Shown: one piece after another, positions 7,411-29,247 of the stretch | Numbering within the stretch: position 1 is the stretch's first letter | How the letters are laid out: every line of letters starts with the position of its first letter | DNA from: Saccoglossus kowalevskii | Lineage: Eukaryota; Hemichordata; Enteropneusta; Harrimaniidae | DNA length: 36,713 nt | Assembly: GCF_000003605.2 (NCBI RefSeq) | Contig: NW_003111474.1 | Span: 198,825-235,537, forward strand | Direction of reading: 5' to 3' | Notes under the pieces: model-generated | Told to the model about the DNA's origin: nothing | The model's database searches: none | Seen by the model: only the letters and a program-made list of their open reading frames with translations | Made by a program: the position numbers and the translations under genes

Positions 7411-9066
7411 TGACCCTTAGAATTCACATGTGTTTTGGGGCCTTTTTAATTCACATGTCATGCATTGCTCTTTGTGGTGTTTTGAACCCACATATTTAAG
7501 CTTCGTGACCTTTTCAATTCACAGGTCAAGCATTGTTCTTTGTGACCTTTTGAACTCACATTTTTAAGCTTCGTGACCTTTTCAATTCACAGGTCAAGCA
7601 TTGTTCTTTGTGACCTTTTGAACTCACATTTTTAAGCTTCGTGACCTTTTCAATTCACATGTCAAGCATTGTTCTTTGTGACCTTTTGAACTCACATTTT
7701 TAAGCTTCATGACCTTTTCAATTCACAGGTCAAGCATTGTTCTTTGTGACCTTATGAACTCATATTTCAAGCTTCGTGACCTTTTAAATTCATAGGTCAA
7801 GCATTGTTCTTTGTGACCTTTTGAACTCACATTTTTAAGCTTCGTGACCTTTTCGATTCACAGGTCAAGCATTGTTCTTTGTGACTTTTTGAATTAACAT
7901 GTCAGGTATTATCCTTTTTGACCTTTTGAATTCACATGTCAAGCATTGTTCTTTGTGACCTTAAGAATTCACATTTCAAGCTTCGTGACCTTTTGAATTC
8001 ACATGTCAGGCATTATCCTTTTTGGCCTTTTGAATTCTCATTTCAGGCATTATCCGTTTTGATCTTTTGAATTCACATGTCAAGCATTATTCTTTGTGAT
8101 CTTATGAACTCATATTTCAAGCTTCGTGACCATTTAAATTCATAGGTCAAGCATTGTTTTTTGTGACCTTTTGAACTCACATTTTTAAGCTTCGTGACCT
8201 TTTCAAATCATAGGTCAAGCATTATACTTTGGGAACATTTTAATACACATGTCAAGCATTGTTCTTTGTGACTTTTTCAATTAACATGTCAGGTATTATC
8301 CTTTTTGACCTTTTGAATTCACATGTTAGGCATTATCTTTTTTTACCTTTTGACTTCACATGTCAAGCATTATTCTTTGTGACCTTATGAATTCACATGT
8401 CAAGCTTCGTGACCTTTTGAATTCACATGTCAGGCATTATCATTTGTGACCTTTTCAATTCACATGTCAATCATTATCTTTATTGACCTTTTGAATTCAC
8501 ATGTCAATCATTATCTTTTGGGACCTTTTGAATTCACAGGTCAAGCATTATACATTGGGACCTTTTGAATTCACATGTCAAGCATTATCGTTTTTGACCT
8601 TTTGAATTCACATGTCAATCATTATCTTTTGTGACCTTTTGAGTTCACATGTCAGGCATTATCATTTGTGACCTTTTCAATTCATATGTCAAGCATTATC
8701 TTTTTTGACCTTTTAAATTCACAGGTCAAGCATTATCTTTTGTGACCTTTTGAATTCACAGGTCAAGCATTATACATTGGGACCTTTTGAGTTCACATGT
8801 CAGGCATTATCATTTGTGACCTTTTCAATTCACATGTTAAGCATTATCTTTTTTGACATTTTCAATTCACATGTCAATCATTATCTTTTGGGACCTTTTG
8901 AATTTATATGTCAAGCATTATTCTTTGAGATCTTTTGAATCCACGTGTCAAGCATTGTTTTTTGTCACCTTTTGAATTCACATGTCAAGCATAATCTTTT
9001 GTGACCTTTTGAATTCACATTTGAAGCATTACAATTCAAAGCGTCATTCTTTGTGACATATTGAAC
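7411..9066 (+). repeat. Satellite array of 37-bp and 31-bp units (68-bp higher-order repeat)
   Basis: The basic 37-bp unit starts with TGACCTTTTGAATTCACATG, followed by TCAAGCATT and a T-rich end. A shorter 31-bp variant ends in TTTTTAAGCTTC. In the left part, roughly 7501-7870, the two alternate: the TTAAGCTTCGTGACC landmark recurs at about 7501, 7569, 7637, 7705, 7772 and 7840, a 68-bp higher-order period. To the right the array is mostly 37-bp units with point changes, for roughly 45 units in all. Many units carry an EcoRI-type GAATTC at the centre of an imperfect 23-bp palindrome (TGAC...GAATTC...GTCA). No unique spacers are present, so this is not a CRISPR array. Open frames inside it are repeat artefacts. 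Confidence 0.95.
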
Positions 9067-12000
9067 GTTAAAAGCATCATCCAATCAATGTGCCGTTCAC
9101 ATTACTGCTCATATTCTTCATGCCAAACATCAAAAAGCAGACCATGTGACAATAATTTGCAATTGAATTTGACGAAATATCAGATCCAACAGTGTTTTGT
9201 TTTTGTGAAAAAATTACAAAGCAATTGGAATTTAATTTAATTTGTAACATTCATTAAACGCAGGTAATCTTTTCTAAGCGTTCGAGTTAAGCTCCAACGA
9301 GAAACAGTTGATTACTGATTTAGATTAGAGTTGAGGATCGTTATCGGCATAAATGTGACGTAATAATAATGATAGTGTAGTTGATTAGATACTACATAGT
9401 GTTTGTCGTCGTTTGTTCTCACATGAATATGCATACTTTTGTCGCGTTTTTTCTCAAGAAAAAATAAATGATTTTTTGTTTTGTTTTTGGATTTGTGTGA
9501 TAGTATTGTGGTAAAAATGCTACAAATCTGTGGTAAAGCGAAATGCTATTTTTCATTTTTAGAAGTTGTATACACAATAAAATTATTGTTAATATAGTAT
9601 TCCGAATATACAATATATAATTTCAATTATTTAAATGATGGAGCAACTGGCCCCGGTGAAAAGAACGTATAATACGAATTGCCCTGTGATTTACAATGCT
9701 AATTTATCTTTCTGTATCTTTCAAAATAACATAGCTATTCGATAACTATTTTCGATTCGATTAACTAAACACGTTTCATGATTTGGATAGTTTTGTAATA
9801 ACTTCATGTTAACTCATCGACATGTTAACTTAATGAGTTGCACGATATCGCTAGACTCAAAGAGATGATCTACAATTCTGCCGCTCACGTTGTCATGGTT
9901 ACACGGTGTTATACAGAACACACGAACTTGTCTAGAATGTAATTGACAGTTTTGTAATATACTAATGAGAAATGTGGCATGCAATTACTCGTCTTTTTCA
10001 CTCGGGTTTTCTGTAAATCTTTGAGCGCTCCCAAAGTCACACGTTCCGCGTCACCCTGATAACCAACTTAGCGGGCTGTCACAGTATGGTGTCTTAATAT
10101 CACTTTTTCTATTGTACCATTACATGTTATTTCTGGCCTTGATTGCGAGGCAATGTTTGTTGATTGGTTTGATGTCACTGTGTTCCATATATTACGACTG
10201 ACATGTATCACTTGCAGGCAAACATCGCGAACATCATTTTGCCTAGATTTGACAATCACTCGTTGTATTACATTATACTCATGGTAGTTCACCTGATAAC
10301 GTTTCGAATAGTACGGCACTATGCGTACTTCATCGGGAATTGTACTTTATTATACACGGCTTATAAATGTTATTCATAAGACAAAAACCAACAACTGCAT
10401 ATCTTATGGTGCGTACTTTTGATGACTTTACATACATCAAAGGTAACAAGTATGAAATATCGTCATTAAGACAAACTACACAAGAATCGCTATGAAATCA
10501 CATGTAATATGGTTGTTTAATGATGGGTTTTTATTTAAATTTGAATCTATAAAACGATACCTTCCAGATGGTCCGTTGCCATAACAACCTGTCAAGCGTG
10601 ATTAGCTGGCAACCATCAGTAGTTTTTTTTTTCCATTTTACAAACAATCGAGCATTGTTTATTTTTTTTCATAAGTGTCATGTGACAGGCGATCAATACG
10701 TCGTACGTCCCTCTTATCTGAGCATCGCGTGTATGCAAAGTGACAATAATTGCAATGAAATGTGGTCGTTTGACAGTGCCAAAAAAGAAATGTCAAAATG
10801 AGAACCTAAAGTTTAAATAAATACCTAATTGCGACAAGACTAGCACTATACATTTCACTTTTCAAAGCACTTCAACCGCCAATGCTTGCATTTCATCACA
10901 TGTCTACTAATATATTATGCAGTTATAATCACTGGCCATATAACTATCCAAACTTTGATTGACAGATTTAGATAGATCAATAGAACTATAAAACGACCCT
11001 GGTTAGTTTTGCATACCATATATACTCATGATTTGCCCGAAATGTCATTACTATAACGTATAATTCCAGACAACCTCTCGTACCGTACGTCTTGTCCTCA
11101 CGCTTTACATCAGTTGCAAAGATACGGTCGTTATTTCGAACAACTCGGAGATCGTGGCGGCCATATTCGACCCACGTCAAAAATCCTTTTTGGTGAAGCA
11201 CTCACGGTGTCACATGGTAACGGTAGATTTATTTAGGTTCAGTTAGACACCGCGGGCTAGGCTTTTTTCAACTAGTATGTGTTTTCCATAAAAGTTACTT
11301 TACAATACCGTACTTGTAGATGTGTTGGCACTAATACGTGACATGGTTATGGTATGAATTGAGGGGAGACGTGTCCTATGTATCATTTCAACAATTCTCG
11401 TTCGATTGCTTCAGCTTCTCGTGTGAGTGTTTGCTGAGTTTTCATTGCAATGCATGTGGATTCACGACGATTAACGCTTGCTACGAGTTACTGCCACCTG
11501 AAGTAATTCGAAATAAAAGCGACAATCCCATTACTGCGCACATGTTCATGCCATCAAATTATTAGTCGTAAATTACCAATACAAAATGTATAATCTCAGC
11601 GTGTAGCACCAAAACTCACACACAAAAAGGCAGTAACGGAAATATAATTTCGTTACGTTGACCTGTGATTGTGTGCAGAATTTAATTTTAGAAAAACGTC
11701 TTTATTTCACGATAAATCACACTGTAACTTCTCTACAGACTTTTTAAAGTTAAGATATAAAACAAAATATTCAAACCTGCTCAAAAAAAACCACAATGCC
11801 TCTTTAATTGTAAGAAGGCGCGATACTGTTGAATGCTATTCAACATACAAATAGTTTACGATCTTTGAATTACAGTAAGTTATTTCTAGATTTAGAGAAA
11901 TAAAAAAAACATCGCGTTATGATAAGGCTGTGCGCATAGTTGAATAGATTTGGAATATATAACAGTATAATTAGCTTTTCATCGAAAAAATTTATTATGA

Positions 12001-12526
12001 TAATGGCAGAGTCGATTCAAGATAAATAGATATCAGTGTGTATTGAGTGAAACGAATCATGAAATTCAGCGATTAGACAGACCTAAATTAACCCCGGTAC
12101 GATTGCTGAATAGAGATCGAGAAAACTCCACTAGATAACTGTCTCATTGTAATACATAAATATATGATAGCATTTAATTTCCATCATTTACTTATTTGTG
12201 TTCAATATTTCTTCAAGCGTGGTATATTTGAGCAACATTGGGTCTGTTCAAAATTTGTTGAAATAAATGTCATAAATTTTCCCGCCAAAATTGTTAAACA
12301 ACATTTTGTCGGTTTAGGGTTAAATGGAAACAATTTCTTGCAGATCTTTAGTGAATAATCTGGAAAAGTTTTGACACGGTTTATCTTATAACAACAGTTG
12401 ACTTACAGGGTTGACTTCAGTATTCAAAGACTTGGCCCTAGTGTTGATAAGTTTGAACTTGTCGTTCAGGGTTGGCATTGGGATTCAATAAATGACCTTG
12501 GCTTTAATATTTCACCTTTACCTTCT

Positions 12527-12642
12527 CTGTATTTTCGCTAATTCAAGATGGCTACCTAAGTAATTTTTTGCTAATTCAAGATGTAGTTAATTTAGCTACA
12601 CTGTATTTTCGCTAATTCGAGACGTATCCAATTTAGCTACTA
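12527..12642 (+). repeat. Short tandem repeat with TTTTCGCTAATTC core
   Basis: CTGTATTTTCGCTAATTC occurs at 12527 and again at 12601 (74-bp spacing). A third, partial copy of TTTGCTAATTCAAGATG lies between them. An opposite-strand echo (GCTGAATTAGCC near 12700) suggests the remnant of an element with inverted ends. The CTGTATTTTCGCT string resembles the termini of the MITE-like element at 21208-21419. Confidence 0.45.
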
Positions 12643-13181
12643 TTTATTTATTTGTTTTTTTTTCTATTCTTATGATGATGAACTGTAGGCTCCTTAACTT
12701 AGCTGAATTAGCCAGATGCATCGCAGACATGGCGTGTATGGTATACCTGGCGAGGAAAGGAGTCGCTCAACAATAACACCCAGATACTAAAGTGAAATAC
12801 GATATACCAATGGAGGGCCCCGGGCGTATGTCAGAATGATTTCCGTAACATGTCTCAAGTTAAAGCGAGAAATCATGACAATTTAATAAACACACAGACC
12901 ATGTGAGTCATTAATTTTATAAATAGACTCAATAATTGAAAATATGAATGAAATGAAAACGAAATTACTTCCTAGTACGTACCAAACAGTATTAATTTTG
13001 AATACTCAGAAACCCACTGGCGTCGGCATTTAACATCAAATCCCCAAGTGGGTGAAAGTCTCACTACGGTTACTACTTGTACAATGTGCGAGTACTTTTT
13101 GGCATTTTTCTACTGAAAGAACTTGAAATTAAAGAAATGATAACACATTGCAGCATATCCTCGTCGTGACGTTCGATTTAC

Positions 13182-13187
13182 TTTAAT
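13182..13187 (-). terminator. Candidate polyadenylation signal ATTAAA for the GPCR
   Basis: On the minus strand this reads ATTAAA, the common variant of AATAAA, about 40 bp beyond the receptor stop codon. I saw no canonical AATAAA in the first 300 bp downstream. Assignment is by position only. Confidence 0.3.
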
Positions 13188-13225
13188 AAAGCTTTCGCCT
13201 TAAGCGTAAACTCAATTAATAACAT

Positions 13226-14695
13226 TCAGACATTATAAGACATCCCTTTCTCCTTTTCAACGCACGAGGGCGTACAATGCTTGCAACTGCCGAAGGTAAG
13301 CATCCAGAACGTCCGCCGAAAGTCGACATTGAAAAATGCGTAGATAATCGGATTAAGGGCCGAATTCAGGTAACCGAGCCACACAAACGAACTAGTTAAC
13401 ATTGTTGGCACGTGACATTGTCTACAAAATGGCGCTATAATGTAAACAAGGAAAAAGGGCAGCCAACACACAGTAAAACATCCCACAACGATAGCCAGTG
13501 TCTTCGCTACCTTTCTCTCCTTTCGCAGAAGCATGCGCGCTTTTTTTCTCTCGTCGCTTTTTCCAGACTTTCCCCGCCGAGTCGGGGAGTTGCACACCGC
13601 GGATACCGGGCTTTCTGTCACCAACTTTTTCAACCTCAGCATAGCGACACTAGAAGAACGAAGTGGTGTGTGTCCGCATTCCCGTGGCAGCGTTGGCGTA
13701 GATTGACAGCTATGATACTCTACTATTCCATTTTGACTGCCCTGTAGTTTCACTTTAGAAACACGTCTGTTAAGCATCGGCGTTCCATAGATGAGCGTAG
13801 TTTTCACTTTATGCTCGTTTGTAAGCGATGATCTTGATATTAATTTCAATGTTTTGACTTTTTCCGGTTTTAGCAAAATATTTCCTTTCTGTTTTTCCTC
13901 GCTGCTAAAACTGTACTGCGAATCGAAAGAATCGGATTTCTCCAAGGTAGTAGTGGTGTTTTTCTGGCCGTTGTTGAATTTTCTCCTCAAACCAAACTTT
14001 TTCTCGCTCTTTGATGCGGCCTGGAATATTCGACAATAAACAAAAATCATGACTAAAAGTGGAAAGTAAAAAGAGCCGCATGCCGAGTATATGACATAAC
14101 CTGGAGCCTGTGTTAGCTGGCACCGTGTAGGGTCTCTTCCGTGATCCGGGTCTTTCCACCCAAAGATAGGCGGGGATGTGATCAATGCAGAAGCGATCCA
14201 AACACCCGCGATCATGCTAAAGCATAGGCGCTTGGAACGCTTGGCTGCGTACTTGAGAGGCTCTGTTATAGCAAAGTACCTATCTAAACTAATGCAACAT
14301 AGGTTTAATATCGACGCAGTACATAAAAGAACGTCCAGTGAAATCCAAATGTTACAAAAGACGACACCGAGCCACCACCTGCCCGTAATTTCTCCTACCA
14401 CGTGGAACGGCATCACGAACAGAGCGACCAAAAAATCCGCCCATGCAAGCGATACGATATAATAGTTCGTCACTGTCCGCAAACGACGCTGTGAGTATAC
14501 AGAAGCTATCACGAGAATATTTCCAATAACTGCGGCGAGAATGATACACGAGAGAACAACAAGGACCAATACGTGAGGATGAGGAGAAAACAATACCCCG
14601 TCGTGTCCGTGATCATCGCTTCCCAACGAGTCGTTATGGTTTCCCGAATAGTAGGATCCATTATAATACACATCAGCAAAAATAACGTGTGACAT
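13226..14695 (-). CDS. Class A aminergic GPCR (octopamine/tyramine/dopamine/5-HT1-like), complete, intronless
   Basis: This is a 489-aa seven-helix receptor for a biogenic amine, expected in the plasma membrane and coupled to G proteins. The short N-terminus has two N-glycosylation sequons (N12, N21). Visible landmarks are N59 in TM1; D87 (2.50) in TM2; C114 and C192 for the TM3-ECL2 disulfide; D121 (3.32), the amine-binding Asp; DRY at 138-140; W166 in TM4; S204 and S208 (5.42 and 5.46) with P212 in TM5, as in receptors for catechol or phenol amines; CWLPFF at 410-415 in TM6; W439 and Y442 in TM7; NPIIY at 448-452. The third intracellular loop is long (about 225-395), basic and Ser/Thr-rich, and the tail is short with several Cys (possible palmitoylation). 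A long loop with a short tail is the layout of alpha2/D2/5-HT1/tyramine receptors, which often couple to Gi/o. SPPIFGW at the end of TM4 and the GYVIYSACGSFY stretch recall invertebrate octopamine/tyramine receptors. The ligand cannot be settled by eye. The frame is unbroken from ATG to stop, so the coding region has no intron. The long open frames overlapping it on both strands are shadows. Confidence 0.95.
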   Translation of the reverse strand: MSHVIFADVYYNGSYYSGNHNDSLGSDDHGHDGVLFSPHPHVLVLVVLSCIILAAVIGNILVIASVYSQRRLRTVTNYYIVSLAWADFLVALFVMPFHVVGEITGRWWLGVVFCNIWISLDVLLCTASILNLCCISLDRYFAITEPLKYAAKRSKRLCFSMIAGVWIASALITSPPIFGWKDPDHGRDPTRCQLTQAPGYVIYSACGSFYFPLLVMIFVYCRIFQAASKSEKKFGLRRKFNNGQKNTTTTLEKSDSFDSQYSFSSEEKQKGNILLKPEKVKTLKLISRSSLTNEHKVKTTLIYGTPMLNRRVSKVKLQGSQNGIVEYHSCQSTPTLPRECGHTPLRSSSVAMLRLKKLVTESPVSAVCNSPTRRGKSGKSDERKKARMLLRKERKVAKTLAIVVGCFTVCWLPFFLVYIIAPFCRQCHVPTMLTSSFVWLGYLNSALNPIIYAFFNVDFRRTFWMLTFGSCKHCTPSCVEKEKGMSYNV

Positions 14696-14986
14696 TTTCT
14701 TGAATATTTATGGGAATAAACCATCCGAAAGGTACGCACAAGTCGTTTTCTACATCGTATCCATATTTGGCGCCGTCCAACTTATAAAAGCTATGCGAAT
14801 TTAATGGAACGTTCTTCCGGTCCGTTGTCGTTTATCGGAGTGATATATGTAGTTCACTGGTTCATATAGATTTACTGTTGGTGATTCCATTATACGATAG
14901 GTAAGTCAGCACACTATGTTCTTGAGCTATAAACACTGCTATGCTTCGAAGCACGCAGTGTAAAATCGTGGTGTTTACATTGTTCG

Positions 14987-14994
14987 TGACGTCA
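14987..14994. promoter_or_regulatory. Palindromic CRE (TGACGTCA) upstream of the GPCR
   Basis: This is a perfect eight-base CREB/ATF palindrome about 290 bp upstream of the GPCR start codon. The position suits a proximal promoter element, and cAMP-responsive control of an amine receptor is plausible. An eight-base site can arise by chance, and no transcription start is known here. Confidence 0.4.
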
Positions 14995-15647
14995 ACATAT
15001 TTGACACCAAAAGAGACACACATGCCGATGTTTACACATATAAAATCTGCTGTCAAGTCTTAGGATATTTGATTCAAAACACAAACTTAAATATAACCAT
15101 ATTGTGAAAATCTGATCTTGAAAATTTGAACTATTTATTGCGTGTAAAACGCGTGTGAGCACTACTTTTTCATTAAATATGTTAAGTTTTAGGATTCAAT
15201 TCACGTAGCTGCAGGTGTTTCACATAATTAATAAGGGTTACAAACCCCTATCACCTTGTATTTCACTTCTAAACATTGCCTGCATATGAATGAACGTTAA
15301 ACAAACATCCAAACATCATATTTTAATTGTTTGTTTTATCAATGTGATGACCAATATACACTTCTACCGACCTTTTGTGATCCTCATAAAAGCGTGTTTT
15401 AAATGACACCATTTATCGCAACAGATTTATTAAACTGTCTGATTTCAGAACGTATATGACATGACATGCTATGTGTCAATTTCATTATCTATTATGCTAT
15501 TTAAAAAAGCGTGGTAAAAAGGGTGAATCCGTGGCGCAATATGTGGACTCACGTGAGACACGTCGCTGTAACGCCAACATTATATTCTATTAACTCTTCA
15601 TATCGTTAGATATCGGACACAACAATGATTGGTTGACTGACATCTTT

Positions 15648-15837
15648 AATTTAAAGTGATTATAAATACTGACAGGCTACCATAGATACGGATCACCATG
15701 GCGACATTCTGTTTGTGTATTTTTATAGCTTGTAGTATCCTCAATTTACAGTGATTACAATATTGGCGGTTACTATAGATACAATTTACTATGGCGACAT
15801 CCTCTTCGTGTATTTTTGTAGCTGGTAGTGTTATAAA
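15648..15837 (+). repeat. 95-bp imperfect tandem duplication
   Basis: Two diverged copies start at 15648 and 15743. Shared blocks are AATTTAnAGTGATTA, CTATAGATAC or CCATAGATAC, ATGGCGACAT and CGTGTATTTTT or TGTGTATTTTT followed by TAGCT. A minus-strand open frame of 81 aa across it only reflects the duplication. Confidence 0.75.
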
Positions 15838-17299
15838 AAACATTATTGATCGGTTATAATAATTTTGTGAACGATTGTGTATGACTGCCACTATATAAGT
15901 CGCAATAGATCAACAGATATCGTGTTTTATTGTGCGGTATAATAAAACGTGAGAGAAGGAGTCATTGACAAAATTACATTTTCGACTCGGGTGGAATAAC
16001 CTACAAGGGTATACTTGTAACATGTTATAATTACTATATACATGTATCTTGTCATGGTGATAAAATCTAAGCATTAACATCACCTCCCGTGTGTATCACG
16101 TGTTTCAGTATTATTTACCATTTATTGCAGTGTTCCCCCCGGGTAAATTCACAAGCATACCGGACATTTTGCATGAATAATACTATCTGATTTACATGTG
16201 TGTTTTATTAAAATGGAAATCATTAACACGTCTATAACCTCTATTAAAGTTAAAGTTCGGCATTTTAGCTACCAAGCATCGTAAAACTCGGTGCCATGCT
16301 TAAAATTCCATGTATGTATACAGTGGTTGTTATGGAATGATGCGTACTAGTTGTAAGATTATAATCGTGAAACGGTTAAATTAGAAATATGTGACGGATG
16401 CAATAGTCAATGCAATAATGTGTATTACTATTTGCAAACGTGTTTTAGCGGAGTTCATCACCCATTTTCGTATACGCACCGTTAGGCTTAGTTTTACTCA
16501 TAATTGTTTCCGTTAATCTGACCGAACTCTTTTTTTTATGATCTTGACCTCTATTGAAAATAATTGCTGAATATTTATCTTCTTTTTTTCACCTTATTTT
16601 TATTGAAAACGATTGAATTCGTGATTAGATACTGTTAAAATATGTGACTAATCCTTGGTCGGTTTTATTAGCTTTTTTGTTATTTAGCCTATATGGATTT
16701 GATTATAAGCACTGGCATGTAAGCATGATTCCGGTGCTACACGGTAAAGGTAGTTTTCAAGCTTCAAGTCACAATATAATTATACGCGGAGTTTCATTAT
16801 GTATAGATGGAATGAAGTCAAATTGCATTTATTAATATACGTTGGAATAAAATGAATTAATGCACAGAAAACACCAAAAAATAGCTATGATGTTAAAACA
16901 ATACCCGACAAAACAGAATTGGCAAGATAATTGCATGTCACAAATATATTCAGATAGTGCTGTCTAGGGTCGAAGCAGATTTTTAAAATACTGGTCTAAA
17001 AGGGTTACAAGAACGAAAAGTTCATATCTCTTTGTCGACCATTATGGCAAACAAATATGAACGTTAATTTTTTCCATATTCTGCTTCTAACTTAACTTAA
17101 CTGGACTCGGGATTCTTCGTCTGGAAACTGAATTTTTTTTACTTTTTTTCTCATATATTTACATGTATTAACTCCGTTATCCACTTACAGAAATATCACG
17201 TTTATATCAAAAAACTTGAAGCAATATATTCGCAAATTATAAACAAAAAATATAAAAACTTTCTTGAATTTGTATTGAGCAGGATGCTTCTGCAGGAAA

Positions 17300-17307
17300 T
17301 GACGTCA
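17300..17307. promoter_or_regulatory. Palindromic CRE (TGACGTCA)
   Basis: A perfect TGACGTCA palindrome in the intergenic space, 419 bp from a second one at 17719-17726. Functional meaning is unproven; it is listed because three perfect copies occur between the two divergent genes. Confidence 0.25.
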
Positions 17308-17390
17308 CAAAAGTGTGTCTATCTCAATTAAGAATATTGAGGTGTGCATGTGTGTGTTTGAGTTCAAGTATACCATTTCAGTTGCTAGTA

Positions 17391-17445
17391 ATTTAGTATG
17401 ACGTATGAATTTAGTATAACGTATGAAATTTAGTATGACGTATTG
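17391..17445 (+). repeat. Three-copy short tandem repeat (ATTTAGTATGACGTAT)
   Basis: Three near-identical units of 18-19 bp, each ATTTAGTATRACGTAT, lie in a row. Each carries a core resembling a CRE half-site (GACGTA or AACGTA). Confidence 0.75.
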
Positions 17446-17718
17446 TAAATTATAAACTTCAATATTCAATAATACGGCGACACCTATGTTCGTTGACACT
17501 TATATTCAAACCCATGCTTATCATTAAAGATAACAATTTATCCGGACCGCTTATTATTTAGAACTATAATGGAAGTTTCTGAAATTTACGTTTTTGTAAT
17601 CGAATAAAACCATTGTTGCCCCTATAACGCTCATTTTTGACTTTTTTCATTCATGTTCTATAACAAGTTGAACGTATAAACTGATGTGCGGTATAAAACA
17701 TGTGTTACATTTGTTGAA

Positions 17719-17726
17719 TGACGTCA
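17719..17726. promoter_or_regulatory. Palindromic CRE (TGACGTCA)
   Basis: A perfect TGACGTCA palindrome about 1 kb upstream of the polymerase start codon. It is the third such palindrome in the intergenic interval and is supported only by its sequence. Confidence 0.25.
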
Positions 17727-18438
17727 TTAATTATGCAAATGATATATCAAAACAATACAATTGTCATATTTTGGGGGGGGATTTCGATCTCTGTTTTTTT
17801 TTTGTATTTTACGGTAGTTAGTTATGCTATTTATATATTCGATTGCATGTTTTATAGGGAAACAATGAGAATTGGATATCTGCCAAATTCGCTGTAAATA
17901 AATAGTCCTTCTTAAAAATGTATTTTGGGAAGTTTTACGAAAAAAGTTGAGTGCAATGACAGTGTAATCTGGATACATAAGACAGCTAATTCTTAAGTTA
18001 TTTAATAATGACGAATGACAACATTCTATATCTAAGTTATATCAGATCTTATGAATAAGTTAATTAAATTAGGGCTTAGATGGCAGCTTTGTTTGACACC
18101 GGATGTGAATAGAAAACCAGTTGTTAGTCCTTTATATTCACGTTATACAGTCGGTTTTATTACATTAGCGTACATGTCCTTAATAATGTTGAGAATTTGT
18201 GAAAATAAAATGTTGTGACATTTTATTTTAAAAGCTTTGTTTGAAAAGCCGCTGCTAAATAACTTTCCGAGATCTACAAATCATGCATCAATCGTATTTG
18301 AATTCCTGTTCTCTCGCTAGTTGTTCTTGACTGTAATAAATGTGTGGGTGTGGGTTGACATGTTATTCTGAAACCAAACTACTAGTATTCATTTTGAAAA
18401 TCAACTAGGTCTAGCCGATTTGGCAAGAAAAACTTGGA

Positions 18439-18658
18439 TACTGTAAAATGACTAATTTCCACTGGGTTTAAATTTCGCTGATTTACCATTTCAGGCATAT
18501 TCAGTGGGTTTTAATGTAAATTCACGGTTTTATCATTTAGATAATATGTTCTATGCTAAACTTTACATATTCAATGGGTTTGTTTTAATTTAGCGCATTT
18601 TCCAGTCAGCAAAATAAGCAAAATTAAAACCCAGTGAGTAATTAACCCTTTTACAGTA
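18439..18658. mobile_element. MITE-like element with TACTGTAAAA inverted ends, promoter-proximal
   Basis: The 220-bp segment starts TACTGTAAAATGACTAATTT and ends in TTTTACAGTA. The right end, read in reverse complement, gives TACTGTAAAAGGGTTAATTA and then CACTGGGTTT, which matches the left end over about 30 bp with small gaps. Inside are repeated CACTGGGTTT/CAGTGGGTTT/CAATGGGTTT blocks. Flanking or terminal TA dinucleotides fit a Tc1/mariner-type TA duplication. There is no coding capacity. It ends about 95 bp before the polymerase start codon and may supply promoter sequence. Confidence 0.75.
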
Positions 18659-18932: not shown

Positions 18933-21900
18933 GTATGTTCTGCAGGGCTCATACCACTAATTGAATTTCCATAGACGACAATGTTAACATATGACGAGAT
19001 TGCTATATGAAAATGACGAAGAAAGTTGAAAATATGGCTCAAAAATGGGAAATCAACATGCCAGTAATCAACCATATGAAAAAAACTAACATGTTGGCCA
19101 GCTCAAACTCTTGCAAATCTCAGGTAAACAAGACACACCTACTGTATTTGGATTGCACCAAGAGAAATCACTGGAAAAACACCAAGATTAGAACATCCAT
19201 TAACACACAGAATAAACCCACAGGTACACAGCCGCTAAGTAGTAAACAAAAGACCACATGTTGGTCTCACCTCTGACCCAGGTGATTACGCCCTCAAATA
19301 GGAAGCACCTGAGAAAAATAATATTTAAAAAATTTCATTGGTTCTTGCTAGGCATTTAAATTGACGAGCAGCCATTGGTTAATTAGTGGCATGAGACCTG
19401 CACAGCTGGTGAGGCTTTCTAAACACATCTTCGCTGTCTCTGTAATTTGTGTAAAAATGGTACTATGGTAGCCCTGTTTACAGACATCCTCATGATAAAA
19501 TCACCTGTGATTCCGCGTTACATTGCACAATCAGTGCTGTCAGTGGTTCTAGAGCGGTGCCGGCGGCTAAGTACATATCCGACTCTTTTAGCACCTGTTT
19601 ATTACCCTAGAAACACAGTACCGAGTGCCTTTGGCGGTAAATTAATAAGAATAACAAAATAAGTAACAATATCAATGAATATGTGTAAACATGTTAAATG
19701 TGGATCCCATGCAACTTTTACACCGGACACCAAGGTTTAATGATCGGGATAATTATTTTCCTAGCAATCGTCCTTGCAACATTGCAATATTCCTAGGAAC
19801 ATTGTTAGTTATTTTGACTTTGACACTCCCGGACACAACAATATTCAAATAGATTTATTGCTTTAACTCATCCAATTTGATCACTAACCCTTATATGTGT
19901 CTCATTACAGTAATGACGTCACTCACATCATATCTGAACTTGAGACAAGAGACAAAGTATTAGAAATATTGAATAAAAGGTACAGAGATGTGAAACACGT
20001 TTATCTGGAAAATGAAGTTGAAATTGTCTCCATTCACTGGTTCACTGCCAGCATGGAAGAGAATAAACCAATCAAAGTTACTGCTGAACACAAACTTCCA
20101 CAAGAACAAAAGGTATATTGATACTGTGCCATGAGTAGGTGCTCTGCCAGAACCAGTAATGAGCAAGATCACACAATGTTTTTTTTGTTGCATTTCTCAT
20201 GCATTAACCAGTTGTCTGCCACTCAAAGACATAAGTACTTTGTCTTTTACTTACATCATGTTACGCTCAATTTTTGAATTTGTGGATTCAGTCTCAAGAG
20301 ATCAAATTCACCAATTTTTGTTATCTTAGTCTATTATACAGATAGACATTGATCTAAAAATGCGTAGTTGCTAAGGGCTTGGTACAAATTTCTGCATCTA
20401 TAGCTGTTGAGCTTATACACTGCTGATGTAACAAAAGACTGATTTATCTAGAAATTTTAAGTGTTATATTGCACAAATGGTTTGCACTCTAACTAGCATA
20501 GTTTGCAGTTGTTGATTGAAGGTCAGTTTCCATAGATGTCATTATTAAACGCCACAGGTTTATCCAATAGGGTTGAATGTAATAGCGATTTTGACCAGCA
20601 CTAAAACTAGTTCCCAGTTGTTTATTGAGCTAGAGTTTCAATAAGGAGCATTATTACTGCTAATAAACACACAAATGGAGTTAATACAAAGCAGTGGGAC
20701 TGACATTTGATAGCTACATATAAAACTGTGGACAATAAACTAGACAAGACGAGTGAATCATTGGTAACACCACTTTCAAATTTGTCTGCGATGCTTTAGT
20801 ATACTTCTTGGAAGAACACTGCAAAGATGATCACTTTAGGAAATGTCAGAGTAGCAAACTATTTTGTCAATAGTTGTCAATCTCTATGTGAAAAGCCAGT
20901 AAAACAGCAATTGGATTAGGCTAATTAGGCAGTCAGGGCATAACTTAACTTTCGAGGTGGTTATCATGGCTTTGCCTATTCATGAGATTTATTAATTTTT
21001 AAAGCAAGTAACATTGTCATCAATGATTTCAACTTATTCTTTGTAGTATTTACCTATGTTACTAATATAAGACATATTTAGACAGATTACCCTGCATAAT
21101 TTCAACTTGTTCTTTGTAGTATTTACCTATGTTACTAATGTAAGACATATTTAGACAGATTATTCTGTACAATTTAGATAAGTGGAAGTTTGAAAATCTG
21201 AACCAAATACTGTAGAATACTTTATTTTCGCTTGGAATTTATTTTCGCTATTTTCGCTGAAGGGATGATTCCGTGAAAATAAAAACCAGCGAATATAAAT
21301 TTTTTCCTATATTTTACATTAATCTCATCAAAAATCAGTGAAAATAAATTCCAAGCAAAACTCCCAAAAACCCTTTTCAGTGAAAATTAATTCCAGCGAA
21401 AATAAAGTATTCCACAGTACATAGTTATTGTATTGTAATTTGAAAACAAATTACAGATCCATAACTGACAGTTTTTGCTTTTAGGAAACCATAGCAACCA
21501 TAGAAGATGAAGCTGAGTATCAAGATACTAAATATGCCTGTCAGAGGAGAACACCACTTAAACACCACAACAAGATATTTACAGTGAGTAAAGTTTATTC
21601 AATCAAGCTGTTGTCAATAGACACTGCTCATGTCACATGTGACATCAGAACTAGAAAGCACTCCATAAGTACAAACCTCCATCGCACTTGCAAAATACAT
21701 AATCTTGTGGGACATAATGTATTATATGTATTTGTGAAGTTTGAACATGATTGGGCCAATAGAGTTCTAGAACAGGATTTAAGAAAAAAAAAGAAATGGC
21801 CACCAGTCAGCCATTATGAATCTGATATGCAAAACAAAGTGATGTGCATTAAGGTTTCCTAATTCCCGATATATGTACCAACTTTGAATGGCAGAAATTT

Positions 21901-24900
21901 TATTTACTTGTTAGCACTAACATCTTAAATTGTATAACAAATAAATGTTCATGGGTATGTATCTCAAATGTATGGTGTAACAGTGTGAATGTCCAGGCAG
22001 AGATACAAATTTGGACACACGGATGCATAGACGTGCAGAGGTGAAATTGTCTGTGTTAGTGCCAATGCTAAATGAAATCAAATGTGGCTAATTAGATTTA
22101 TATTTCATCAGCCACAATAACTACTTAATATCTAAAATTACGATATCATGCACCTCTATAACACAATGTATGATGTAAAGAAATAATATCTCCTATAAAG
22201 CAGGGCACCAATATAATGAGGGATTTTTAACAAATGATAGTGTGCACAGTGGCAAGTATTATTGTTGAGTACACACATTCTAATCTGCTATAACAAATAG
22301 GAAAAATAAACATGATTTTTCATTAGCTAATATTACTAAGAGTAATTGAATAAAAAACAAAAATTAATTGTGTTATTTGTGTTAGTGGCAAAAACTATTT
22401 TTATCCTCAGTAGCCAAGAATGGTCCCTAGGGTAGACATATCCATTCCAGTTATTGGAGTCTTCTATTGTCTATGGAAATACTCAATGAATATTATGTTA
22501 TTCTTCAGTTATGAAATTACTACAGGTCCTAAGTGCTGATATTTACAAATCATTTTCCAGGATGCTTTAGAGGTACTTGAAAAGAACGCTGATTACACTG
22601 GTGGTGATCAGGATTACTCTAGAGCGTTGGCTTTCAGGAGAGCGTCGGCTTCCTTGAAATCATTACCACATACTGTAACGAGTATGAGAGATGTTGCTAA
22701 TTTGAAAGACATCGGCAAGCATTGTAAAGATGTTATTAGGGTGAGTAATAAATTACATCAAATACAATTATTGTCTTTTGAATCTACATTTGTACAAATA
22801 TGAATGTTAGAAATATCTACAATTTTGTATCTAGTGAGTCGATCATGAAGAAACCTATGATTATCATCATTTTGAATTGTCACAAAGTTACTGCCCGTAT
22901 TATATTTGTATAATCATTTGAGTCAATAAAATCTGAATCAACCCAGGCACATGATGGGTAGCTTTGCAACCAGTAAATCCAAAAATCTTTTATTGCAATC
23001 CCAGTTCTCCTGATTTTTCACAATAATTTAATTTTCAGGAAATATTAGAGAAAGGTTACTCAACTGAAATAGAAGACATCAAGTCAAGTGAATGGTTTAA
23101 AACTATACAGGTATACATGTATATATTACCTGGTATCAGCAGTGTGTCAATTTGAGGACAGCGCCCTCATGGTTTTATCATGGTTTATTTTTAACCCAGA
23201 AAAATAAGTAATTGTTATCTACATTCAAAAAACAGCTGTATGTACACCTCTTGAGACGATAACAAGGTTATACCTTTTAGTTATTTGTAGGTATCTATGG
23301 TTGTGGCCCGGCTACAGCACGAAAATGGTACAATATGGGATATCGAACATTGGAGGATATCAAGAAATCAACAACTATTCATCTAACAGCAGATCAAAGA
23401 AATGGTATTATAATAGTTATTTAAACCTTGTCTGGTTTTGTCTGTTTTTTTGTTTGTTTTGTTTTGTAGCAGCATCTTGTGTTTGCTTCACCATTTTGTT
23501 TTTATCATTCATCGGAAAATCTATACAATTTCCACGGTCATTGACAATGTAGCAACTTAGTCCAATTGCTTGATTTGATGAAGTACTGTCACCATGGATA
23601 CCAATGCAAAACCAAAGATATGAAAAAGTTTAAATAACATAATGAAGAAATTGTATTTTTTTTTTAGTCTGTTCTGAACCTCGTTCCCACACAATTCTGC
23701 TGACACCATATATTCTCTCTCATTGCTGATTTCAACAACCCACCCTGCCCCCAAGTTTTTGTTTGCAGTTTTTATTTTCTTTGTTCAGGTATAAGGTTTT
23801 ATGATGATCTACAAACTCCGGTGATAAGACGGGAAGCTGAGGCTATCAGGAATTTCATAATTGAAGAGATAAAGGAAATATCCAATGATTTTACTGTTGT
23901 TATAACAGGAGGATTCATAAGGTATGAAGAATTATTATTTAATTAGTCCCCGTTCGAACGCAGTCTGAAAACGGGACTTATGTTTTGACCTCTGTGTGTC
24001 CGTGCGTCTGGACCTGTATCTTAGAAATGCCTGGACCAATCACAATCAAACTTCACACGTACATCATACATGATATTATACATATGCACATCAATTTGTT
24101 TCACGATCTGATTCAAGATGGCCAAATGGCAGTCATTTTTGTGCTAAAAAATCATCAAAATCAAGCATTTCTCAGCTGTTTACAGATGGATTTTGTTCAA
24201 ACTTGGTATATACGTTGGATATTATAGGACCTTGATGCACGTCATTTTGTTTTTCAGATAAGATTCAAAATGGCCAACTGGTGGCTTTTTTGTTTTAATG
24301 AATGTGGTTCTAGTGCCATATCTCTGACTTGCTTTGACTGATTATGTTCAAATTTTAAATATTCATTATATATCATGTCATGGATATGCAGAAATATTGG
24401 TTTGACGATCCTTTTAAAAAATGGCTGAATGGTGGCCATTTTTGTGCTAAAAAATAATTTTATTTTTCAGATCGGATTCAGAATGGCTGACTAGCGGCCA
24501 TTTTGTTTTAATGAATGGGCTTCTAGAGCCATATCTCTGACATGCTTTGACTGATTATGTTCAAATTTTATATACATGTATTCATTATACATGTATTCAA
24601 AATGGCTGATTTTGTTTTAATTAATGCTGTTCCAGAGCAATATCTCTCAATACTCGTTTGACAATCAGAAAGAAATGTCAATCATTTTAATGTTAAACAA
24701 TCATCATAATCATATTCCTGACATGTTTATATTCCAGCTATATTACTATAAACAAAACTATATATCTTAAAATTGATAACTAACGGGCCATGCATGGCTT
24801 GTTAAGTTAGGAAGAATACAATCCAGCCAATAAATTTAGCAAGGAATATTGTCATTCAGACCCACAAAAATTGGAATGAAATCCTTGTTTAATGTGATTT

Positions 24901-27552
24901 TACAAAAATAGTGTCTATTGTGATATGTGTCCTTTGAAAGCAAATTCTCGTTATTTGTTCATTATGCAACACAATGTATCATTGGTGGATGTGTATGTAA
25001 CACAGTTTACCATTGGTGGAGGTGTATGTAACACATTGTACCATTGGTGGATCGGTATGTAACACAGTTTACCATTGGTGAATCTGTATGTAACAGAGTG
25101 TACCATTGGTGGATGCGAGTGTAACAGAGTGTACTATTGGTGGATTTGTGTGTAACACAGTGTACTATTGGTGGATCGGTATGTAACACAATGTACCATT
25201 AGTGGATTTGTATGTAACACAGTGTACCATTGGTGGATCTGTGTAACAGAGTGCACCATTGGTGGATGTGAGTGTAACACAGTTTACCATTGGTGGATCT
25301 GTATGTAACAGAGTTTACCATTGGTGGATTTGTATGTAACAGAGTTTACCATTGGTTGATTTGTATGTCATTGTTGTATTTTGTATTCTTAACCACAGGG
25401 GAAAAGATTCTGGACATGATGTTGATTTATTGATGTCCCACCCAGATAATGGAAAGGAGAAAGGTGTCCTTCAAAAACTGATCACAAACTTAAAACAGAA
25501 GAATCTTTTACTGGAATGCAGTCTACAAGCCAATACATTTCACAAAGAATCGTTGAAATCCCCAAAACACTACAAATCAAGTATGTTGGATCATTTTGAA
25601 AAAAGTTTGAGCATCTTCAGACTTGAAAAATCTATGGTTGACAAGTATACCAGTTGTGGTGGTGCGTCTAAAACGACAGAAAAGGTTCAAGGTGGCAAGT
25701 CATGCTCCTCAAATACAAAATCCGATGACTATATACTAAAGCACACAGATAGCTTTGATCTTCCAAAAGACAGAACATGGAGGGCTGTGAGAGTGGATTT
25801 TGTTGTGTGTCCACAAAGTCAGTATGGATATGCATTGTTAGGATGGGTTGGTTCCAAAATGTTCAATAGATCCATCAGACTCTATGCTGACAGAGAACTT
25901 GGTATGATGCTATCAAGTCATGGTCTCTATGATAGAATTAATGTAAGTTATCACATTATATCTAGTACTGTGTCGCATACGACTTATTTACCACTTCCGT
26001 GTCACTGAGAATGTTCTAGAACCGTGCTGTGTCTGGGTGGAATATTCTAGATTTTTTTTAGAAACTGGTTGAATAGGTAATAGAACAACTGTAGGAGACA
26101 ATAGAAGGTAATGGAACATTCTAGAAATTTATAGTAAATTCCAGACTCATTATGTATGCTGATGTAATGGTCTATTTATAGACAGTGTGGGTATATATAG
26201 GGGAGTTGTTCAGCACTGAGATCAGATCGGAGATCTCGTTGAATTGTATTGGAGTTTAAGTATCTAGTTATTGGAGTAGTGGAGTTTTACCGCGTTATTG
26301 TACTTGATTTTTGCAGAGTATAATAATACCAGTACCAGTTGAAACCTCATCTGATGGCTCCGTGTTCGTATTTTATCATTGCCGCCAGGGAAGTCTTTCT
26401 GTTACTGTTGCCATTTTGGTATTTGAACCATCACACCTGTACTATACCAATTACGGTAATCGTTGCGTGTGACATACTGCTGCAGTCAGCTGCAGTAAAG
26501 CTAACACAGTATAAAACCATGTTCAATTGATGCTTTGAAAGATTTATATTTTTTGCATGCAGTCCATATGACTTGTAAAATAACAAAAAATAGTATGCAA
26601 AATTAAAAATATCTATTACACAATCAGCACCAATCGGCACATAAACTCAGGATGTATATACTAACAGAAAGCCCAATGGCAATCTGGAGACTTACAATGC
26701 AATATAACAAAAATTGAAAGAATGGCACAGAACGTGCAGTATACCCTTGATATACATCGATATGATCTGGACCATGTAAGAAATTAGTGGGAATACCTCT
26801 AATTGGCTGAATATAAATAATTGAAACAAAAAGAACAAACTGCAACGGTTTCTACCATGTTCGCTCTCATGCCGTCGCCGCACTTCAGAATCGGTATTTT
26901 GAAACAATGTATGATAAGTCAGGATACTCTGATGATGAGTAAAGTGTGTAACAAATATTGCATGTTTCAATTACAATGCTTCACAGATAAATCATTCAGT
27001 AATTACTCCGACATGACTATTGACTCAAGGGCAAATGCAAAAACTCATAATTATATTTTATTTATTTGAATGTTACAACAATGAATATTCACAACCCAGA
27101 AGAGAACAGTAACCAGGTTTTAGTGTTTTAAAAAAATGAATGGCATTGGAAATGAATCATAGCCATAACACATTACTTCTATTACACCAATAAGTGAGTG
27201 TCTAGAAATTGATATAGAAAAGTTATTGGAGTGGATGGACTGAAATAGTGGTCAAAATAAAGTCAAGTTTAAAAGTCTGTTCTACCCACAGGAATTGCAA
27301 AAAAAATGTGTTTAATAAAATTACCATGGCCATATTACAATTTATTATGACAATTTAATTTTTTTTGCATCTCCTTTGAAAAATTAGACACTGTTACCAT
27401 GCTTTTTAATGTGATATTGTTGAATGCAAGTCTGTAATAGTTTCACTATGTTCTGTCATTTCCAGCAACAATACATCCCGGCATCATCAGAACAAGAAAT
27501 CTTTGAACATTTGAAGCTGACTTGGATAGAACATGAAGATAGGAACTGTTGA
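18754..27552 (+). CDS. POLM: DNA polymerase mu / terminal transferase-like family X polymerase, complete nine-exon gene
   Basis: Joined exons are 18754-18932, 19911-20112, 21485-21583, 22561-22740, 23039-23110, 23281-23404, 23789-23921, 25399-25942 and 27466-27552. All introns are GT-AG and the phases agree, giving 539 aa (vertebrate Pol mu and TdT are about 500). The enzyme adds nucleotides at broken DNA ends in non-homologous end joining in the nucleus, and the family differs in how far it needs a template. Visible parts are a basic KRRK at 6-9 (likely nuclear signal); a BRCT domain at about 18-115 with the conserved Trp (W103); the 8-kDa domain (YACQRRT and SLKSLP motifs); a helix-hairpin-helix with GIYGCG near 248-253; palm GGFIRGK with HDVD giving catalytic D337 and D339; third catalytic D463 in RVDFVV; GW at 478-479; and SHGLYD at 503-508. 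GW in place of Tyr-Phe and the BRCT place it in the Pol mu/TdT branch rather than beta or lambda; SHGLYD favours mu. Oddities are V480 where the branch has Thr (GWTGS) and about 51 residues (406-456) between IFRL and WRAVRVD. DNTT-like activity cannot be excluded. Confidence 0.93.
19911..20112 (+). CDS. POLM: Polymerase exon 2 (rest of BRCT)
   Basis: The acceptor CATTACAG precedes it and the donor is AAAAG/GTATAT. The first base completes Ser60 and the exon ends in phase 0 at residue 127. NDVTHII and the SIHWF Trp are classic BRCT marks. Confidence 0.93.
21026..21172 (+). repeat. 73-bp tandem duplication in polymerase intron 2
   Basis: Two nearly identical copies of 73 bp start at 21026 and 21099 (ATTTCAACTTRTTCTTTGTA and onward). 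Only a few differences separate them, so the duplication is recent. Confidence 0.9.
21208..21419. mobile_element. MITE-like element with TACTGTRGAATACTTTATTTTC ends, in intron 2
   Basis: The 212-bp segment has long inverted ends: the left end TACTGTAGAATACTTTATTT and the reverse complement of the right end TACTGTGGAATACTTTATTT continue to match for about 38 bp. TTTTCGCT and AGCGAAAA blocks repeat inside. It has no coding capacity, and the terminal TA fits a TA target duplication. The TACTGTA start is shared with the element at 18439-18658, so the two may belong to related families. Confidence 0.85.
21485..21583 (+). CDS. POLM: Polymerase exon 3 (linker to 8-kDa domain)
   Basis: 33 codons (128-160), phase 0 on both sides. 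The acceptor is TTGCTTTTAG and the donor ACA/GTGAGT. KYACQRRTPL matches the YACQRRT motif at the start of the TdT/Pol mu catalytic core. Confidence 0.93.
22561..22740 (+). CDS. POLM: Polymerase exon 4 (8-kDa domain)
   Basis: 60 codons (161-220), phase 0 on both sides, between CATTTTCCAG and GTGAGT. It encodes FRRASASLKSLP, the typical family X 8-kDa motif, and the start of the first helix-hairpin-helix. Confidence 0.95.
23039..23110 (+). CDS. POLM: Polymerase exon 5
   Basis: 24 codons (221-244), phase 0 on both sides, after ATTTTCAG and before GTATAC. It completes the first helix-hairpin-helix region (EILEKG) and runs toward the fingers (SEWFKTIQ). Confidence 0.9.
23281..23404 (+). CDS. POLM: Polymerase exon 6 (second helix-hairpin-helix)
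   Basis: The acceptor is the AG at 23279-23280 (CCTTTTAG). A second AG ten bases later (23289-23290) would shift the frame. Only the first gives LFVGIYGCGPATARKWY, which matches the LFTSVFGVG region of TdT. The exon ends in phase 1 at ATG/GTATTA. Confidence 0.9.
23789..23921 (+). CDS. POLM: Polymerase exon 7 (start of palm)
   Basis: Encodes residues 286-329 plus two bases of Arg330, between TTGTTCAG and GTATGA. It carries the RREAEAI helix and ends within the GGFIR part of the nucleotide-binding motif, so the intron splits this motif from the catalytic Asp pair in exon 8. Confidence 0.93.
23946..24660 (+). repeat. Decayed dispersed repeat in polymerase intron 7
   Basis: It begins with a hairpin, GTCCCCGTT paired with AACGGGAC (23946-23977). 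Diverged sub-units then recur, each with GATTCARAATGGCYRA, TTTTGTTTTAATGAATG, CCATATCTCTGAC and TTTGACTGATTATGTTCAAA. The best pair starts near 24255 and 24468 (213-bp spacing), with partial copies near 24110 and 24591. I associate this type of sequence, from memory, with abundant repeats in mollusc genomes. It has no coding capacity. Confidence 0.75.
24966..25369 (+). repeat. 31-bp minisatellite next to polymerase exon 8
   Basis: About thirteen units of roughly 31 bp, each with ACCATTGGTGGATSTGTATG followed by TAACASAGTKT. The array ends about 30 bp before the exon 8 acceptor. Copy number is likely variable between individuals. A minus-strand open frame across it merely repeats a 10-11 aa motif. 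Confidence 0.95.
25399..25942 (+). CDS. POLM: Polymerase exon 8 (catalytic core)
   Basis: The acceptor is AACCACAG and the donor AAT/GTAAGT. The exon encodes Arg330 (last base) to Asn511. It holds catalytic D337 and D339 (HDVD), the IFRL strand, third catalytic D463, the GWVGSK motif at 478-483 and SHGLYD. At 544 bp it covers what vertebrate genes divide among several exons. The open frame continues upstream of the acceptor only by chance. Confidence 0.96.
26009..26021 (+). promoter_or_regulatory. Perfect heat-shock element (GAAnnTTCnnGAA), LTR site 1
   Basis: GAATGTTCTAGAA is a perfect three-unit binding site for heat-shock factor, within the solo LTR. A weaker version (GAATATTCTAGAT) lies at 26040-26052. 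Confidence 0.6.
26114..26126 (+). promoter_or_regulatory. Perfect heat-shock element, LTR site 2
   Basis: GAACATTCTAGAA is a second perfect three-unit site, about 66 bp upstream of the LTR TATA box at 26192. Confidence 0.6.
26192..26200 (+). promoter_or_regulatory. TATA box of the solo LTR
   Basis: TATATATAG lies downstream of the heat-shock elements. A TTCAGCACT initiator-like string follows about 20 bp later. It would drive transcription in the sense direction of the polymerase gene. Confidence 0.5.
27466..27552 (+). CDS. POLM: Polymerase exon 9 (C-terminus)
   Basis: 28 codons plus TGA after TTTCCAG. The sequence ends IFEHLKLTWIEHEDRNC, matching the IFRHLGLEY...RNA type C-terminus of Pol mu/TdT, so the protein is complete. 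Confidence 0.94.
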   Translation, partial: QQYIPASSEQEIFEHLKLTWIEHEDRNC

Positions 27553-27663
27553 ACCAGAAATTCAAATCTGTCAAACACCACTTCTTCTTTTTTGCTTATC
27601 GTCATCACTTTATTAGGCCTTGCTGCATTATGTTCCAGATCCTCCTTTCTCTTTTACAAAAAA

Positions 27664-27669
27664 AAATAA
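27664..27669 (+). terminator. Polyadenylation signal AATAAA for the polymerase
   Basis: The first canonical AATAAA, about 110 bp after the stop codon. Further AATAAA sites at 27979-27984 and 28203-28208 close the two copies of the duplicated downstream segment, so longer 3' ends are possible. Confidence 0.6.
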
Positions 27670-27740
27670 AGATATTTGATAGGACTGATCCATGATCATT
27701 TTAACTTATTATAAATAGATTGTACATATCAATTTCAACT

Positions 27741-28215
27741 TTAATTTCACTGATATTGTATAAAGATAATGACTGTGATAAATTGTATTTACTACCAATA
27801 CATTGTAAAACTTTTTAATGTAATTTAACATTTTTATAATGGCTTTAGTGGACATATTTTAATGTATTTCATTAAGTTACTAATGAGGATATGTATCCCG
27901 ATGTAAAATATACAATTTTTTTTTTATTTAGAATAATTATTTATTTGTATTTCAATGTTTTGTGTATATTTTTTACTGAATAAATTAATTTTTAATTTCA
28001 CTGATATTGTGTAAAGATGACTATGATAAATTATATATATACTACCAATACATTGTAAAACTTTTTAACGTATTTAATATTTTTATAATGGCTTTAGTGG
28101 GCATATTTTAGTCAATTTTATTAAATTACCAGTAATTATTTGTATCCCAATGTAAAATACACAATCTTTTTTTTATTTAGAATACTTCATAATCATAAAC
28201 TGAATAAATTAAATT
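27741..28215 (+). repeat. Tandem duplication of the 3'-flank polyadenylation segment
   Basis: Copy 1 (27741-27991) and copy 2 (27992-28215) share TTAATTTCACTGATATTGT, CTACCAATACATTGTAAAAC, TTTTTATAATGGCTTTAGTG and a T-rich run followed by ATTTAGAATA. Each ends with CTGAATAAATTAA and so carries its own AATAAA. Copy 2 has small deletions. Confidence 0.92.
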
Positions 28216-28894
28216 AAAAGATGTTTTTGTAAAAAAAAAATATTCCTTATTTATTGGTTTCCCATGAGTCTGGTAATGAAGTGTTGGTAACACACATTAG
28301 CAGCTTCTGGTCAAATTTGTTGTCATGACAATGGATTTGTCTTCTTTTTTTTAATGAAAATTCTGAAAAAAGTTTTTTTTAACCAATTTGTGTTTTTATC
28401 ACAATATTGGCAAAGATTAACTCGTATGTTTCTGTTTGTACACCCTATAGCTGTATCCAAATGTCTTGAACCACCAACTATTCTATCAGTCCTCAAATTA
28501 TATTGTGGTTGTTAGTCAATGTTTCTTTGTGTGTTTTTTTCTGTATGTTGAATGGTAGAAGAGTTAACAAATCTGTGTGTTTTATTTACATCCATTCTGT
28601 AGACGTTTGATCTGGAGAACATCATACCTGGTGAAAATTTGATTACATAATACATCGTTATGGCAGAGCATGTAGTATGTATTCTCGTCTTCTCTGTTTT
28701 AAACTATTAAGTCAAGGGTTTATAAGAGAAGACTGATCTTGTCATTTAAAAAGTTCTATGGCAAGTATCATCAGCTTGTGGACAAGTATCATGTTTCTAT
28801 GAAATAGATGGTAATAGAAGCGCTGGATGTCAATTGTCTTGCACGAGGATGACCTGAAAATTCACGATTGTGACTCAGAGAGATATATGGTGGG

Positions 28895-28947
28895 TGCCAC
28901 ATGTGGAGCAGGATGTGCTCACTCTTTTCGAAACACCTGACATCACC
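28895..28947 (+). repeat. Possible SINE-like or transcript-end repeat segment
   Basis: GTGGAGCAGGATGTGCTCAC followed by a CACCTGACATCACC string resembles, from memory, a segment often seen at 3' ends of bivalve transcripts (GGGCAGGATCTGCT... CACCTGA..TCACC) and possibly a SINE domain. The match is by recollection only, and element borders are not visible. Confidence 0.3.
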
Positions 28948-29247
28948 TATTGGTTTGTGTCTTGAGGTCCATGTATCTCTCTCACCGATTTGACAGTATG
29001 TTGTTTGTTTTGTTTGTGTGTCCCCTGTGTGTTCTCGAATTTGTAAATATTGCCTTTTGACATTGATTGTTTGGATTATTGTTGCTTGGATTTTTCCATA
29101 TTGTTTCAACAATTTTGAACAATATTTCGACTTTTGAAACCTGTGTTTTTTGGGGGGGATTCAATCAATTGTTACATTGTCATCTATTTAGTGGTATGAT
29201 ACATACTCACCATGTAAACCCACGTATTTTGCATTTTCCTATTGTTG

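Follow-up and report, generated by a model that had tools for sequence, protein, structure and literature searches.

A solo LTR with putative heat-shock elements, from a repeated LTR retrotransposon family, in an intron of a TdT/pol-mu-like gene of Saccoglossus kowalevskii

In plants, the LTRs of retrotransposons are known to carry heat-shock elements (PMC3907296, PMC5059998), and for fungi such elements have been predicted (PMC12810828), according to the portions of these papers on which we draw here and below. The LTR of the Arabidopsis element ONSEN (COPIA78) is driven by heat-shock factor and has a promoter free of CG sites (PMC3907296), and the 16 fragments or solo LTRs of ONSEN in A. thaliana all lack a functional heat-responsive element (PMC5059998). 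In Cryptococcus, the LTRs of TCN12 and TCN3 carry putative heat-shock elements and mobilisation was observed at 37 degrees C; the same source also mentions demonstrated cases of heat-shock-induced activation via the host machinery from both plants and animals (PMC12810828). Among animals, the closest case that we found is a DNA transposon: Caenorhabditis Helitrons with heat-shock elements are associated with HSF-1 recruitment and with induction of nearby genes, as far as the consulted part of that paper goes (PMC6927752).

The family described here resembles ONSEN in its clustered GAA-type heat-shock elements, its CG-free promoter and the expected role of a host heat-shock factor as driver (PMC3907296, PMC5059998). 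It resembles the Helitrons in being a repeat family that carries NGAANNTTCNNGAAN elements across an animal genome (PMC6927752), and TCN12 and TCN3 in having LTRs whose heat-shock elements are, there as here, predicted (PMC12810828). It differs from the rolling-circle Helitrons in being an LTR element (PMC6927752), and from both ONSEN, a plant copia whose heat induction and binding by HSFA2 are proven (PMC3907296, PMC5059998), and the mobilised fungal elements (PMC12810828) in being an animal family, of Ty3/gypsy type, that is known from its sequence. Moreover, in contrast to what the consulted part of PMC5059998 reports for ONSEN solo LTRs, most of the solo copies read here keep their heat-shock motifs. 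Among the best matches of a literature search, covering titles and abstract openings, nothing was recognisable as this LTR family, nor was any family of LTRs bearing heat-shock elements named for a mollusc or oyster.

The window, that is, the whole stretch of 36,713 nucleotides analysed, contains a gene for a family-X DNA polymerase closest to TdT/pol mu, which agrees with the original prediction that the segment of interest lies inside a polymerase gene. Exon 8 of this gene ends in phase 0 at 25942 with the donor GTAAGT. A letter-by-letter reading places a segment bounded by TGTC...GACA, with TACTG on both sides, 28 bp past this exon end, exactly as had been described, and the two perfect and one near-perfect triplets proposed to lie 5' of TATATATA were found there (table 1). 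No second copy of the LTR was found within the window, and scans of the window with Rfam (gathering scores) and for tRNAs gave no match.

Table 1. Coordinates in the window of the solo LTR, its sequence features and the neighbouring exons.
Feature	Position	Strand	Remarks
TSD, left copy TACTG	25966..25970	.	Read from the sequence
Solo LTR, 504 bp, TGTC...GACA	25971..26474	+	Same orientation as the gene; full-length matches in the genome
Heat-shock element 1 (HSE1), perfect GAAnnTTCnnGAA	26009..26021	+	Perfect in 38/40 copies
Heat-shock element 3, one mismatch (GAAnnTTCnnGAT)	26040..26052	+	GAAnnTTCnnGA kept in 33/40 copies
Heat-shock element 2 (HSE2), perfect GAAnnTTCnnGAA	26114..26126	+	Perfect in 37/40 copies
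CpG-free promoter stretch of the LTR	26024..26227	.	0 CpG vs 5.0 expected from composition
TATA box (TATATATA)	26192..26199	+	TATATATAG in 37/40 copies
Initiator-like TCAG, ~30 bp 3' of the TATA box	26222..26225	+	Predicted from sequence only
TSD, right copy TACTG	26475..26479	.	Read from the sequence
Reading frame with exon 8 of the TdT/pol-mu-like host gene	25340..25942	+	Left edge of the exon not fixed
Exon 9, last coding exon	27466..27552	+	28 residues + stop

The whole arrangement might be accidental, and the duplication with its inverted ends is indeed at chance level when taken alone. Searching for 5-bp duplications combined with 4-bp inverted ends at a spacing of 150-1500 bp, we obtained 32 pairs in the window, the pair at this locus included, while 200 shuffles of the window gave a mean of 34.9 and reached 32 in 132 cases; intron 8 by itself holds two such pairs, and at least one occurred in 91 of 200 shuffles of this intron. 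These frequencies rule out the TACTG duplication as stand-alone proof of an insertion. The paired heat-shock triplets are rarer. The window has one case of two perfect triplets at most 150 bp apart, and 2 of 200 window shuffles have such a pair; of 5000 shuffles of the LTR, none contains two perfect triplets within its 504 bp. Both tests were chosen after the motif had been noticed. Neither a perfect triplet nor a copy of the LTR was present in the 89,367 readable bases (of 200,000) taken from two other contigs of the same genome.

The question is settled by copies elsewhere in the genome. We searched the species' own assembly (572,110,611 bases in 4830 contigs) with a 514-bp query made of the LTR and both TACTG copies, which returned 595 first-look candidates. 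The best 40 were scored, and all of them, each on a different contig, match at 96-100% identity, starting at query positions 1-6 and ending at 509-514; 18 cover exactly positions 6-509, which is the LTR by itself. The 40 copies that we read, among them the copy in the window, were chosen as the best matches to the latter and are thus not a random sample. TGTC starts 39 and GACA ends all 40, and a perfect 5-bp direct repeat lies directly outside the LTR in 34, again including the window copy; two further copies (L025 and L048) have a 5-bp duplication with one mismatch, and no flanking repeat of 4 or 6 bp was recorded among the 40. Each copy has its own duplicated word, except that ATGAC is present twice. 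One copy, L022, lies within an AT repeat, where its duplication carries little meaning. The end-to-end matches over 504 bp raise the whole pattern above chance and, together with the 5-bp duplications of the copies, refute the view that this is plain intron sequence in which repeats and motifs arose by accident, to which we give hardly any credence. There is strong support for identifying the segment as a solo LTR from a repeated LTR retrotransposon.

Among these 40 best copies, 36 look solo, three are the ends of elements and one (L056, with N on its left) could not be assigned; the share of solo LTRs may be too high, given the N runs in L024, L025, L038 and L056 and the sampling of best matches. 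The original prediction of a solo LTR flanked by a 5-bp target duplication thus holds as regards the genomic copies, the 34 exact duplications and the element features seen in three copies, while its other expected sign, a copy whose two LTRs enclose an interior, was not seen in the stretches read around the 40 best copies. Comparison of the LTR with viral contigs, genome contigs, phages and plasmids gave no match, which carries little weight as these are not animal DNA collections.

Elements of the Ty3/gypsy group (Metaviridae) are characterised by TG...CA ends, 5-bp duplications, a primer-binding site, a polypurine tract and a Ty3-type RNase H. Signs of each were found in the family examined here, the primer-binding site and polypurine tract being recognised by eye in 3 of the 40 copies (L038, L050 and L024). 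In L038 and L050, the right flank runs into TCTGGGGGCTCGTCCGGGAACAG (TC-TGGGGGCTCGTCCGGGA), a likely primer-binding site which we take to resemble the proline-tRNA type. In L024, a polypurine tract, AGAGGGGAGG-CA, lies directly left of the LTR, and an open piece of 120 residues ends 321 bp before it. This piece matches the Pfam families RT_RNaseH_2 (PF17919, E-value 1.4e-35) and RT_RNaseH (PF17917, E-value 2e-33), and its best relative of solved structure (PDB) is the Ty3-G Gag-Pol. With this Ty3-type RNase H upstream of its LTR, the family most likely belongs to Ty3/gypsy, the coding link coming from one copy, L024. That copy must be deleted or chimeric, because only 321 bp, which hold no further sense frame of at least 50 residues, separate RNase H and LTR. 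A gag-like charged piece adjoining L050 matched no Pfam family, and the stretch right of L038 (L061) consists of a 50-base gap followed by sequence with no sense frame of at least 80 residues. In the copies read here we saw neither an intact coding region of the family nor an integrase, a difference from known Ty3/gypsy elements.

The heat-inducible promoter architecture ascribed to the segment was borne out at the level of sequence, with three heat-shock elements 5' of the TATA box that most copies keep. With its two perfect triplets and one near-triplet, the LTR contains at least three adjacent GAA units in its promoter, the criterion given in the consulted part of PMC5059998. Positions 54-250 of the LTR are free of CpG in 36 of the 40 copies. 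A transcription start is predicted near 26224. Neither AATAAA nor ATTAAA is present in any of the 40 LTRs.

Whether these motifs still work is a separate matter. The segment may be a solo LTR whose heat-shock elements are ancestral and functionless now, the family having spread without heat and its copies in methylated gene bodies being silent, a reading that we regard as a serious possibility. It is in line with the conservation of the elements within the family, which is unremarkable: in a permutation test on the 40 copies, the HSE1 and HSE2 columns showed no significant excess of conservation over the remaining LTR (P = 0.23), nor did the set of columns with site 3 added (P = 0.52), a site that varies more than most of the LTR does. 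When the mask of each element was slid over the LTR, conservation was equal or higher at 138 of the 491 places for site 1, at 165 for site 2 and at 404 for site 3. Selection on the heat-shock elements within the family therefore received no support from this test, which has little power because the copies are probably too young; for the same reason, neutral decay would hardly separate functional from functionless elements. On the other side, the two perfect triplets and the near one 5' of the TATA box exceed chance, as none of the 5000 LTR shuffles holds two, and both perfect sites are retained together in 35 of the 40 copies. Given the unremarkable conservation, heat induction has to be argued from the anatomy of the promoter and the proven plant case, from which we infer with good reason that the LTR would be heat-inducible.

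A young age is suggested by the similarity of the copies and by the CpG content of the window copy. Pairwise differences among the 40 LTRs average 2.8% and range from 1.0 to 4.5%. The window copy, which is nearest to L024 (1.6% difference), has seven private alignment columns, made of three substitutions and a four-column gap. The CpG observed/expected ratio is 0.79 in the LTR against 0.37 in the surrounding gene body (Poisson P 0.008), and the value of the LTR lies above those of all 316 gene-body windows compared. This contrast and the mean divergence of 2.8% fit a recent insertion into a gene body depleted of CpG. As a mark unique to the LTR the CpG contrast was rejected, since 351 of 725 windows of the whole stretch reach or exceed its ratio. 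The value of 0.37 also suggests that the gene body around the LTR is methylated, which would suit the reading of silent, functionless elements.

Turning to the host gene, the LTR could have been co-opted there, either as a switch that responds to stress or as an alternative 3' end of the polymerase gene, which we consider very improbable. In favour of it, the LTR lies in sense orientation 28 bp past the exon 8 donor, and if exon 8 were spliced to 26317, the reading frame would be kept in phase and stay open for 51 codons, until a TGA where the LTR ends. A T at 26309, private to the window copy (1/40), gives a T5 tract and lengthens the pyrimidine tract before CAG. However, an open frame of 51 codons is not rare, the tract is short, the candidate acceptor at 26317 failed the pyrimidine cut-off of the splice-site scan, and the LTR has no canonical poly(A) signal. 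A transcript started in the LTR might use donor-like intronic sites, for example at 26776 or 27194, for splicing to exon 9. As this exon encodes just the last 28 residues of the polymerase, with no methionine among them, a transcript limited to exon 9, of the kind originally suggested, would not make the polymerase, and an LTR-started transcript spliced to it would be a non-coding by-product. An influence of the LTR on the TdT/pol-mu-like gene is unsupported.

Taken as a whole, the evidence leads us to regard as probable that the segment is a Ty3/gypsy-type solo LTR with a compact promoter driven by heat-shock factor, which at this locus would be a passive remnant with little effect on the polymerase. 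A full element would have inserted into intron 8, duplicating TACTG, and recombination between its two LTRs would then have deleted the interior. The remaining LTR would constitute a compact promoter in which the three heat-shock elements are combined with a core free of CpG, the TATA box and the initiator-like site. Under heat or protein stress, trimers of heat-shock factor may bind the two perfect sites and element transcription would start at about 26224. In intron 8, the solo LTR is probably passive; it may give rise, under stress, to a non-coding sense transcript that runs over the last part of the intron, and the polymerase itself would be little affected.

A bolder proposal, which we put forward as doubtful, is that a young Ty3/gypsy-type family, present mostly as solo LTRs, has scattered near-identical, CpG-poor promoters driven by heat-shock factor over the genome and wires genes, including the polymerase, to heat stress, as do the Caenorhabditis Helitrons. 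If heat drives the family, each solo LTR would provide this animal's genome with a heat-shock promoter that is mobile and ready for use. The many near-identical inserts with exact duplications would then form a clean natural set for testing whether transposons spread stress wiring, and such testing would go beyond the plant and worm cases.

Inside the solo LTR of intron 8 of the polymerase gene, the pyrimidine tract ahead of a CAG, a candidate acceptor, is lengthened by a T that is private to the window copy, being found in one of the 40 scored LTR family copies (the 40 best of 595 candidates). Read in the exon 8 phase, the frame past this CAG stays open for 51 codons. A short way 3' of the exon 9 stop codon are direct repeats spaced about 250 bp apart, likely located in the 3' UTR of the gene.

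L062 lies beside L050, a family copy running rightward into a likely primer-binding site. Past this site, it contains open-frame pieces with a high E, K, and R content and a gag-like look; the longer piece had no match in Pfam.

The window also holds an intronless open frame of 493 codons matching rhodopsin-family GPCRs (Pfam 7tm_1, E 5.7e-75), and two minisatellites, one with a 37-bp unit (about 43 units, including 30-bp variants and variants with 68-bp spacing), the other with a 31-bp unit (13 units), which extends across the left boundary of the open frame holding exon 8. Three further stretches share 69-92% identity with repeats from a small sample of the same genome. In the greater part of the first 18 kb, and around 31.3-32 kb as well, CpG o/e is near 1 or higher, whereas it is about 0.37 across the polymerase gene. 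This mosaic is consistent with gene-body methylation in an invertebrate, the methylation itself being what we infer.

Positions of the features in the window, except where L062 is named
Feature	Position	Strand
High CpG o/e	1-18600; ~31.3-32 kb	
37-bp minisatellite	7501-9031	
GPCR-like frame	13226-14707	minus
Repeat-like stretches	18438-18658; 21204-21422; 23943-24592	
Low CpG o/e	19600-29000	
31-bp minisatellite	24963-25368	
Private T and candidate acceptor	26309-26317	
Direct repeats	27698-28187	
E/K/R-rich pieces	L062 1-483
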